Assembly (NCBI GenBank): GCA_028275075.1
Contig: JAQCNK010000101.1
Span: forward strand, 1 to 10,637
Direction: 5' to 3'
Origin: Haloarcula sp.
GTDB taxonomy: Archaea > Halobacteriota > Halobacteria > Halobacteriales > Haloarculaceae
Length of the DNA stretch: 10,637 nucleotides
Shown here: piece by piece, positions 6,676 through 8,790 of the stretch
Layout of the letters: each line of letters begins with the position of its first letter
Numbering within the stretch: position 1 is the stretch's first letter
The notes under the pieces: model-generated
The model's input: the letters and a program-made list of their open reading frames with translations, nothing else
Databases searched by the model: none
Told to the model about the DNA's origin: nothing
Position numbers and translations under genes: made by a program

Positions 6676-6757
6676 GAGGCGGTCGCAAATAGGTTCCGCC
6701 ACGAGTGTCGATACTGAGAACAGGGCCAACCGTGTCTACAGAGGAAACAAGGCGAGT

Positions 6758-6779
6758 GCCTCGGGGCTTGACCCCGAGG
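6758..6779. repeat. Left-end palindrome of the IS605-type element
   Basis: An 8-bp perfect stem, CCTCGGGG with CCCCGAGG, encloses a 5-nt loop (CTTGA). The whole 22-nt sequence recurs exactly, in the same orientation, at 8665-8686. It lies 13 nt beyond the tnpA stop codon, as expected for the hairpin that a Y1 transposase recognises on single-stranded DNA. Confidence 0.85.
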
Positions 6780-6792
6780 GTGAAGCCGACAC

Positions 6793-7190
6793 TTAGACGT
6801 GTTCTGTTCGTTCAATATACCGCTCAATCGTCTCCGTTGAAACGGTTCCTGCCGTTCCGATGTAGTACGACTGCTCCCAGAACCCACCGCCCCACAGATA
6901 CTCCTCCAAGTACGCTTCGTGCTGTTCCACATCTTTCGCGCAGTGATGCTCTTGACCATCCGTGCAATCCCGCTCGGTGCGTGCTTCGGGTGGGCTGACA
7001 GGAACAGGTGTACGTGGTCGGGTGAGATGTGGAGAGAAAGTATCTCGTAGTCGTACTCGTCGCACACGTCGTGGAAACTTGTTTCCAGCGAGTCCTCGAT
7101 TGGTTCGAGAATCGCGTGACGGGATTTCGGACACCACACGAAGTGGTAGTTGACGTTGTACACCGTGTGGTTTGACTGCTTCTCGCCCAT
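6793..7190 (-). pseudogene. tnpA: tnpA, IS200/IS605 Y1 (HUH) transposase, broken by a frameshift
   Basis: From the ATG at 7190 the frame reads MGEKQSNHTVYNVNYHFVWC, the standard start of this transposase family, through the HUH motif HVH (residues 59-61 in HISPDHVHLFL) to MVKSITAR at about 78-85. The family's C-terminal half continues in another frame: EEYLWGGGFWEQSYYIGTAG, then ETIERYIERTEHV and TAA at 6793-6795. The tyrosine in ERYIE would be the catalytic one. The switch falls at about 6931-6942 and fits loss of one nucleotide; the segment is 398 bases, one short of a 132-residue gene. The shifted frame reaches no stop and runs into cheF. The enzyme would cut and join single-stranded DNA at the hairpin ends during excision and insertion. 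A sequencing error or programmed frameshift cannot be ruled out, although no slippery run is obvious. Confidence 0.85.
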
Positions 7191-7212
7191 ACAGACAGTA
7201 CGTGAACAAGAG

Positions 7213-7222
7213 TTAAGTATTT
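7213..7222. promoter_or_regulatory. Shared AT-rich core of a divergent tnpA / RHH-tnpB promoter
   Basis: TTAAGTATTT is the most AT-rich block in the 55-nt gap between the two divergent start codons. Its centre (about 7217.5) is 28 nt from the tnpA ATG at 7190 and 28 nt from the RHH ORF ATG at 7246. Read on either strand (TTAAGTATTT or AAATACTTAA) it is a plausible TATA box at the leaderless distance, so one element may serve both directions. Confidence 0.45.
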
Positions 7223-7239
7223 CAGTATCTAAGTAAGAA
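7216..7239 (+). repeat. Three 8-bp-spaced AGTA repeats, possible operator
   Basis: AGTATTTC (7216-7223), AGTATCTA (7224-7231) and AGTAAGAA (7232-7239) begin with AGTA at exactly 8-bp intervals. They overlap the promoter core and end 6 nt before the RHH ORF. Some RHH repressors bind short tandem repeats of similar spacing (the omega repressor uses 7-bp repeats). Assignment as an operator of the adjacent ORF is inference. Confidence 0.3.
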
Positions 7240-7245
7240 TGTGGG

Positions 7246-7383
7246 ATGACAAAACGACTGTCCGTGGACTTCGAGGACGATGTGTACAAGGAGTTCTCGA
7301 AGAAGTGTATCGAGGTTGACGAAACCAAGTCCGACGTAGTACGTGGACTCGTCAACGACTGGCTTAACGAATCCGAAGAATGA
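7246..7383 (+). CDS. Small ribbon-helix-helix-like protein co-encoded with tnpB
   Basis: An ATG at 7246 opens a 45-codon frame ending in TGA at 7381-7383. The protein begins MTKRLSVDFEDDVYKEFSKK and continues with CIEVDETKSDVVRGLVNDWL before a short acidic tail. The pattern is that of a CopG/Arc-type ribbon-helix-helix domain: a short beta strand (KRLSVDF, residues 3-9), helix A (about 11-22), a turn with the typical S/T-K-S (28-30) and helix B (about 30-41). RHH proteins are dimers that place paired strands in the major groove. The last base of its final sense codon and its stop form ATGA with the tnpB start, so the two are translationally coupled. Codon use is like that of neighbouring genes, with strong third-position G/C. 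It may regulate the divergent promoter immediately before it or act with TnpB; neither is shown by the sequence. Confidence 0.75.
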   Translation: MTKRLSVDFEDDVYKEFSKKCIEVDETKSDVVRGLVNDWLNESEE

Positions 7384-8654
7384 CCGACGCACAGGCCCTC
7401 GTCAAGACGCTGGACTTCCAACTCGACATCCAGAGTGACAACGAGAGCCTGTTATACGACGCCACACTCGAAGCCCGCTCGGTGTACAACGAAACCATCC
7501 GCCTCACCAAAGAAGGCGTGGACTGGGACGTGATTCCCGACCGAGTTGCCGATGACGCCAACCTCGTGAAGAACACGACACAGCGCGTCGTCGCCAAGGC
7601 TCTCGGCGCGATGGAGAACTACTACGAGTACGACGACTTCGGACTCCCGAGTCACACCAAAGACGGCGCGTACCCGCTCCGAGCGAACTTCACGGAGGGG
7701 TACAACCTGTCGCTCACCGACGACGGTGACGTGGCGTTCCGAATCAGCGCGAAGCCGTACAAGCACGTCAAGGGTGTCCTCAAAGGGAGTGACGCTCACC
7801 TCGACATTCTCAAGACCGCGCTCGAAAACGACGAGTGGAAGATTGGGACGGCGGAAGCCCTGTTCCACAACGACAACCCCGAGTTGCACGTCAACGTCAC
7901 CCACACCGAACAGACCGTTCGAGACAAGCACGACTCGCGGACGGTCGTCGGTGTGGACGTGAACGAAGACAACGTGACTCTCACCGCTCTCACCGAGGAT
8001 GGCGTCGAGGACTCGTTGGTCATCGACTTCCCCGAAATCAAATTCGAGCGTCACCGCTACTTCACGATGCGGAAGCGAGTCCAGAACGCGGGGAAAGAGA
8101 GCATCCACGACACACTCGAAGGGCGTGAGGAACGGTTCGTCCGTGACCGACTCCACAAGGTGTCTCGGCATATTGTGGAGTGGAGTCGTCAGTTCGAGAC
8201 GCCGTGCATCGTCTTTGAAGACCTCAAAGAGATGCGCGACAGTATCGACTACGGCACGCGGATGAACCGACGCTTGCACCACCTCCCCTTCCACGCCCTC
8301 CAATTCTATACATCGTACAAGGCGTCGTTCGAGGGCATCCCGACTGCGTGGATTGACCCTGCGTACACGAGCCAGCGGTGTCCGATGTGCGGGCATACGG
8401 AGCGTGCGAACCGCAACAAGAAACGGTTCAAGTGCAAGTCCTGTGGGCATCAAGACCACAGCGACCGTGGTGCAAGCGTCAATATCGCTGTGAAAGGCGT
8501 GAAGAAACTCGATTGGAATGTGCCTGCTCTCAACAGCCTTCCCGTTGTTCGGAAGGTGCGACGGCAGGCATCGGGGGTCGTGGACGCCCCGACCGTGACC
8601 CACCCGACCGCCCGAGGCTATCAGGCCGATGGTCGGATGGGAGTGTCCGACTAA
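7380..8654 (+). CDS. tnpB: TnpB, IS605-type RNA-guided nuclease, apparently intact
   Basis: The 424-residue protein has the TnpB layout. The N-terminal half (about 1-180) matches the wedge/REC part, and a split RuvC fold follows with Asp193 in VVGVDVNED, Glu280 in IVFEDLKE and Asp362 in HSDRGASVNIA. Between the second and third motifs lies the conserved PAYTSQRCPMCGH with a zinc finger of Cys334, Cys337, Cys352 and Cys355. All residues expected for cleavage are present, unlike nuclease-dead TnpB derivatives. Such proteins use an RNA from the 3' end of their own gene to cut DNA beside a short target-adjacent motif, which helps retain the element after excision. The C-terminal 50 or so residues after the RuvC end look unconserved and coincide with predicted RNA helices. 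Start: the ATG overlaps the RHH stop codon (ATGA). Since tnpA is broken, this may persist as a stand-alone nuclease. Confidence 0.93.
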   Translation: MTDAQALVKTLDFQLDIQSDNESLLYDATLEARSVYNETIRLTKEGVDWDVIPDRVADDANLVKNTTQRVVAKALGAMENYYEYDDFGLPSHTKDGAYPLRANFTEGYNLSLTDDGDVAFRISAKPYKHVKGVLKGSDAHLDILKTALENDEWKIGTAEALFHNDNPELHVNVTHTEQTVRDKHDSRTVVGVDVNEDNVTLTALTEDGVEDSLVIDFPEIKFERHRYFTMRKRVQNAGKESIHDTLEGREERFVRDRLHKVSRHIVEWSRQFETPCIVFEDLKEMRDSIDYGTRMNRRLHHLPFHALQFYTSYKASFEGIPTAWIDPAYTSQRCPMCGHTERANRNKKRFKCKSCGHQDHSDRGASVNIAVKGVKKLDWNVPALNSLPVVRKVRRQASGVVDAPTVTHPTARGYQADGRMGVSD

Positions 8655-8694
8655 CCCACGGGAAGCCTCGGGGCTTGACCCCGAGGCAGTTCAC
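8521..8694 (+). ncRNA. Predicted omega/reRNA scaffold overlapping the 3' end of tnpB
   Basis: Helices found by hand follow one another. TGCCTGC (8521-8527) pairs with GCAGGCA (8564-8570) and encloses CCTTCC (8537-8542) with GGAAGG (8551-8556). TCGGGG (8571-8576) with CCCCGA (8587-8592) starts at the very next base. CCCACCCGACC (8599-8609) pairs with GGTCGGATGGG (8631-8641) at 10 of 11 positions. The right-end palindrome is at 8665-8686. TnpB proteins take their guide RNA from exactly this place, and sense RNAs overlapping tnpB 3' ends are known in haloarchaea. The guide would be the bases directly after the right end, beginning near 8695. The 5' limit and processing are not visible. Confidence 0.55.
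8665..8686. repeat. Right-end palindrome of the IS605-type element
   Basis: This is an exact 22-nt copy of the left-end sequence at 6758-6779, with the same 8-bp stem and 5-nt CTTGA loop. It begins 10 nt after the tnpB stop codon. It should serve both as the transposase recognition hairpin and as the last helix of the RNA scaffold. Confidence 0.85.
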
Positions 8695-8790
8695 CCGGCA
8701 CCTGATGGCGGGCACCGGTGTCGTGTTCCGGGCACCGCGATACGGTTCTGTGCACCCCGAAGAGTTTTCCCGGGATGACTGACCCCGCTG

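Follow-up and report, generated by a model that had tools for sequence, protein, structure and literature searches.

A covarying structure at the 3′ end of a haloarchaeal tnpB gene is very probably an omega RNA scaffold and predicts where its guide starts

The 3′ end of a tnpB gene in a draft genome of Haloarcula sp., together with the right end of the surrounding IS200/IS605-type element, very probably forms an omega RNA scaffold (8518–8694, forward strand) that would guide TnpB to empty insertion sites bearing the motif TCTAC. The whole stretch of DNA analyzed here, referred to as the window, comprises 10,637 nt of a draft genome of 2.06 Mb over 373 contigs. We observe at this locus a conserved structure, constraint at the RNA level, defined element boundaries, the motif TCTAC and an open nuclease gene with aligned motifs. 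In bacterial IS200/IS605 elements such as ISDra2, the TnpB omega RNA (or reRNA) lies at the tnpB 3′ end and the right end, with the guide directly after the element and a motif outside the left end. The window shares with this type the placement of the RNA, the position of the guide and the presence of a motif outside the left end, but differs in the motif TCTAC and in its haloarchaeal sequence. A preliminary description had proposed an omega RNA or reRNA at this place, an identification borne out by covariation among relatives and by a match to an Rfam sotRNA family that is below threshold yet significant.

The element extends from 6740 to 8694 on the forward strand, as delimited by boundary conservation, the empty sites of two other insertions and a palindrome at both ends. 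It shows the features of the IS200/IS605 group, namely Y1 transposase and/or TnpB genes (here both), subterminal palindromes, no target duplication and a fixed left motif. The tnpB gene (7380–8654, forward strand) is open over 424 codons and matches Pfam Cas12f1-like_TNB with 65.7 bits. Both the RuvC motif segments and the zinc ribbon of a TnpB nuclease were found: the segments GVD, FED and SDRGAS, which we take to carry the acidic, catalytic RuvC residues, and the ribbon CPMCGH/CKSCG align with the solved TnpB/Cas12f chains 9nzp_A and 9nzq_A. The tnpA gene (6795–7190, reverse strand), identified by Pfam Y1_Tnp over positions 1–86 of the 121 of the profile only, is frameshifted near 6.93 kb, and its length differs from all six aligned relatives; open tnpA genes are present in the copies L006 and L009. 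The frameshift may be true decay or a sequencing error, and because of it this copy of the element may no longer be mobile by itself. A small ORF of 45 aa that overlaps the tnpB start (7246–7383, forward strand) matches a ParG-like ribbon-helix-helix profile; it is present at 8 of 80 loci, and the idea that it belongs to the system as a conserved component was rejected. A second, distant tnpB lies in the same genome (contig C337; L005, L189), with a twin-hairpin repeat of the kind described below close by.

Relatives of tnpB were taken from the best 80 of 128 loci in named genomes, plus copies from related genomes. This yielded 96 3′ tails, of which two (L086 and L116) are the window itself. 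A right-end-like TTCAC is present in 93 of the 96, one of these (L050) being a false end within an insert. For covariation, 91 tails free of N were reduced to 65 without inserts and 59 distinct sequences, of which 58 were aligned; L087 was left out as its coordinates failed verification. A 90-nt duplication in L019 and L092 contains N, has the look of an assembly artefact and was likewise excluded from this set. The copy L093, from a same-genus genome, shares its 3′ end and right flank with L036 of Haloarcula vallismortis.

All helices are located on the forward strand, and the first four were found where the preliminary description had placed them. Domain 1 (8521–8570) consists of a 7-bp stem, 8521–8527 × 8564–8570 (7/7 paired), enclosing the hairpin 8537–8542 × 8551–8556 (6/6). 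In domain 2 (8571–8592), the six proposed pairs 8571–8576 × 8587–8592 do form (6/6), but a register with a bulged G fits better. As six straight pairs, this helix shows no double changes and 96.8% of its cells pair, and it was replaced by 8571–8574 × 8589–8592 plus 8576–8578 × 8586–8588 with G8575 bulged, in which three of the seven pairs carry double changes and 99.3% of cells pair over the 58 rows. Domain 3 (8599–8641) is a 43-nt hairpin, 8599–8609 × 8631–8641, with 10 of 11 positions paired and double changes at 7 of the 11. The terminal palindrome (8665–8687) exists as proposed, with a length of 9 bp (8665–8673 × 8679–8687) instead of 8, and five of its nine pairs have double changes. The segment 8518–8694 folds with −91.4 kcal/mol, whereas its dinucleotide shuffles average −73.5 kcal/mol (sd 4.9), which gives z −3.69; one of 200 shuffles folds as well.

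The paired positions covary in related haloarchaeal tnpB 3′ ends, which is the outcome that the preliminary description had called for, and the signal withstands shuffle, slide and tree controls. More specifically, 95.5% of the 2,197 cells of the 38 pairs originally proposed are paired across the 58 distinct 3′ ends, a share that falls to 35.3–50.0% when the partners are slid by 1–3 columns. Changes on both sides occur in 14 of the 38 pairs against a shuffle mean of 7.1, with none of 500 shuffles as high, and none of the 500 attains any of the five covariation measures for this 38-pair structure. The weak spots lie in the 43-nt hairpin, where two neighboring pairs are open in 15 and 21 of the 58 rows and three further pairs in 5–10 rows. 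Since kinship inflates double-change counts, a tree was inferred from the 1,000 bases that precede the aligned region, and on it we took the minimum number of switches between Watson-Crick types, a number that recombination between copies could inflate. In the 43-nt hairpin, the three pairs at its center switched at least 8, 9 and 13 times; the minimum is 1, 4 and 3 for three pairs of domain 2, and 1–3 for each of four pairs of the right-end palindrome. The conserved structure overlaps the tnpB 3′ end and stops at the right end, as in a TnpB omega RNA.

A pseudoknot that the preliminary description had missed can form between the loop of the third helix, GUGGAC (8580–8585, forward strand), and the terminal GUUCAC (8689–8694, forward strand), the latter being defined both by boundary conservation and by this complementarity. 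Among the 92 copies of the window's type, the loop reads GTGGAC in 84 and GTGAAC in two; four of the remainder were caught in another register and two gave no match although GTGGAC is visible. Within the 58 rows of this group, the pseudoknot shows no double change, four of its six pairs being invariant, and one pair is absent from the aligned row L084. The support comes from comparison with loci of the sot2652 type, 29 of 30 of which have the loop GUAAGC (27) or GUAAAC (2) together with the end GUUUAC; the remaining locus did not match the search expression. The third pair is A-U in these 29 loci and G-C in the window's type, a compensatory change that links the RNA fold to the terminal sequence of the DNA element.

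To separate constraint on RNA from constraint on protein, we calculated codon-position diversity as mean pairwise difference over 63 sequences. The third-position difference is 0.21–0.33 up to 8519, drops to 0.123 in 8520–8573 and 0.178 in 8574–8615, and returns to 0.27 in 8616–8651. The amino-acid difference is 0.07–0.22 before 8520 and then 0.098, 0.21 and 0.273 in the same three stretches, with the highest diversity after codon 398. These figures indicate that the first 18 codons within the RNA are conserved as RNA and protein, that the following 14 are conserved more strongly as RNA than as protein, and that the final 12 are constrained in neither respect. Furthermore, 9 of the 93 tails contain an insert that ends the TnpB protein (6) or shifts its frame (3) ahead of the tail, but in all of them the element still extends to its right end. 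The earlier suggestion of selection on RNA over an unconserved protein tail is supported by the third-position drop in 8520–8615, by the amino-acid diversity after codon 398 and by these interrupted tails; a simple form of it is opposed by the first 18 codons, which are conserved as protein, and by the last 12, whose third positions are free.

The right-end palindrome has an identical counterpart at the left end (6759–6779, forward strand), the two being the only exact matches within the window (0 of 200 shuffles). This is what a DNA hairpin recognized by TnpA would have, and such selection surely accounts for part of the constraint on 8665–8687. We nevertheless regard it as very improbable that selection, through TnpA, acts on the single-stranded DNA form alone, with everything beyond the right-end hairpin a by-product of GC-rich coding. 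Domains 1–3 lie inside tnpB without a left-end copy, carry double changes and lowered third-codon diversity, and match an RNA family that was built on a transcript.

This family, Rfam RF02657 (sot2652), matches 8518–8640 with 43.6 bits (E 1.4e-7 for 2,231 bases searched); its gathering score of 61 bits is not reached, and the window has no match at the gathering threshold. Of 292 genomes of the class, 134 contain RF02657 matches at E ≤ 0.001, in 63 cases above the cut-off, compared with 0 of 14 control genomes. Omega RNAs of this kind, first called sotRNAs, are already known in haloarchaea: PMC12558985 treats sotRNAs as omega RNAs and reports them from RNA data, and sot2652, a sense overlapping transcript of Halobacterium salinarum, now goes by that name. 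The transcript sot2652 has in common with the RNA of the window the location at the tnpB 3′ end, the order of helices, the right-end hairpin and the loop-to-end pseudoknot (PMC12558985). The RNA of the window differs in the sequence of its 43-nt hairpin and in its score below the gathering cut-off, as well as in its right end (GTTCAC versus GTTTAC) and its loop (GTGGAC versus GTAAGC/GTAAAC).

Both ends of the element were located by comparison with other copies. Of 59 loci anchored on the left palindrome, 53 have TCTAC 19–20 nt ahead of the anchor and six lack it, and left-side conservation begins at the first base of this motif. In the window the motif occupies 6735–6739 (forward strand), just outside the left end, and is presumed to be the TAM, or target motif. 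A separate table of 35 left-motif sites is no evidence, because its search expression itself demanded the motif; the 59-locus count was anchored elsewhere. At the opposite end, base preference vanishes after GTTCAC: in 81 distinct right flanks, the most frequent base reaches at most 38% at each of the first 12 positions. The right end therefore lies at TTCAC, position 8694, as originally proposed, and for two other insertions the empty sites confirm the corresponding joint.

For the insertion in L036, the joined flanks align uninterrupted with ten same-genus genomes (L209–L218), over no fewer than 196 of their 200 bases. Their joints read TCTAC in two (L210 and L216), TCGAC in six and TCCAC in two, followed by the guide sequence; in L210, TCTAC is followed by 27 exact guide nucleotides. 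For the insertion in L019, the empty site in L229 is TCTAC plus 23 exact guide bases. Among the matches for these two insertions, TCTAC was not seen in the partial L219 and L221–L227 nor in L231, a diverged site of the L019 insertion. Because these empty sites join TCTAC directly to the first guide base, the element sits between the two without duplication. By this rule, the guide of the window should begin CCGGCACCTGATGG at 8695, the start that had been predicted, and the natural guide would presumably span 8695–8714 (forward strand), taking its length to be about 20 nt. As positions only, the guide right after the element and the TAM outside the left end agree with a TnpB omega RNA. The proposed search for empty sites in relatives thus succeeded for two other insertions. 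As for the insertion in the window itself, some part of its joined flanks was recovered in 30 of 32 same-genus genomes, and three (L117–L119) match the whole query without the element, but divergence at their junction obscures both TAM and guide.

In summary, an IS200/IS605-type element (6740–8694) lies directly after TCTAC on the chromosome of a haloarchaeon. We propose that the tnpB transcript folds in its 3′ part into three domains, the right-end hairpin and the loop-to-end pseudoknot, giving a scaffold that stops exactly at the right end of the element, so that a transcript running past 8694 would carry the adjoining DNA as its guide. TnpB would then bind this omega RNA and cut DNA in which TCTAC precedes the guide sequence, such DNA being copies of the unoccupied insertion site. 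That the RNA is transcribed and processed, how long its guide is, and that TnpB binds it and cuts are here extrapolated from known TnpB systems. That the RNA instead serves a repressor-like TnpB relative, which binds without cutting, is highly unlikely; nothing specific speaks for it, this TnpB can be aligned with solved TnpB/Cas12f chains over the segments taken to carry the RuvC acidic residues and over the zinc ribbon, and the flanks past the right end match insertion sites. For this haloarchaeal TnpB group, the omega RNA reading supplies a structure tested by covariation, the precise start of the guide and TCTAC as a candidate TAM, and so makes the nuclease directly testable. No TAM for a haloarchaeal TnpB was found in the titles and abstracts searched, from a library with few subscription journals; a short conserved terminal oligonucleotide of haloarchaeal IS605-type elements is already regarded as a targeting sequence in PMC3119063.

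Twin-hairpin inserts of 53–58 nt were observed in 23 of the 93 tails, with three pairs sharing insert and right flank, probably from the same locus. They occupy the loop of the right-end palindrome in 16 tails (L010, L023, L030, L031, L042, L045, L047, L051, L052, L067, L075, L097, L102 and others) and the scaffold, after the equivalent of 8558/8559, in nine (L011, L020, L037, L039, L081, L102, L052, L063, L077); two tails carry both. Further repeats lie in the loop of the left palindrome (L027, L041, L079, L047) and in the tnpA region at about 2000–2630 (L019, L020, L028, L034, L038, L042). The insertion point is between G and C for most copies listed. That the scaffold-site inserts are translated insertions was rejected, since those of 54 nt (six) introduce a stop codon and those of 56 nt (three) shift the frame. 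Among thirty 54-nt copies, 95.5% of cells pair and the covariation score is 0.450 versus 0.171 in shuffles, while double-change pairs and further pair types (two of five measures) do not exceed shuffles at n = 30. Paired changes occur in both arms of the repeats. A one-mismatch pattern for one repeat form was found in 23 of 60 related genomes, and its reversed control in 0 of 60.

PMC3119063 describes the SMR repeats of Haloquadratum walsbyi as short, lacking target duplication and inserted in near-terminal palindromes of IS605-type elements, SMR-A being about 110 bp. The repeats found here likewise occupy such palindromes, but are 53–58 nt long, form twin hairpins and also lie inside the omega RNA scaffold and tnpA. 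As SMR-A inserts in near-terminal IS605-type palindromes, they probably represent a new family of an already described kind. A more speculative scenario, which we consider rather unlikely, is that the 54-nt repeats are a mobile family landing at G^C where the folded single-stranded DNA of IS605 elements forms loops, with Y1 transposase supplied in trans; landing in the scaffold would remove the TnpB tail and keep a working guide RNA, so that the repeat would ride on, or tune, the nuclease.

Terminal-only elements of about 50 bp, consisting of the left end, one palindrome and the GTTCAC right end, were also observed near position 1500 in L106, L108, L109, L111 and L115, four of the five behind TCTAC. 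They resemble the PATEs of Haloquadratum walsbyi, which PMC3119063 describes as 52-bp terminal-only elements derived from core deletion.
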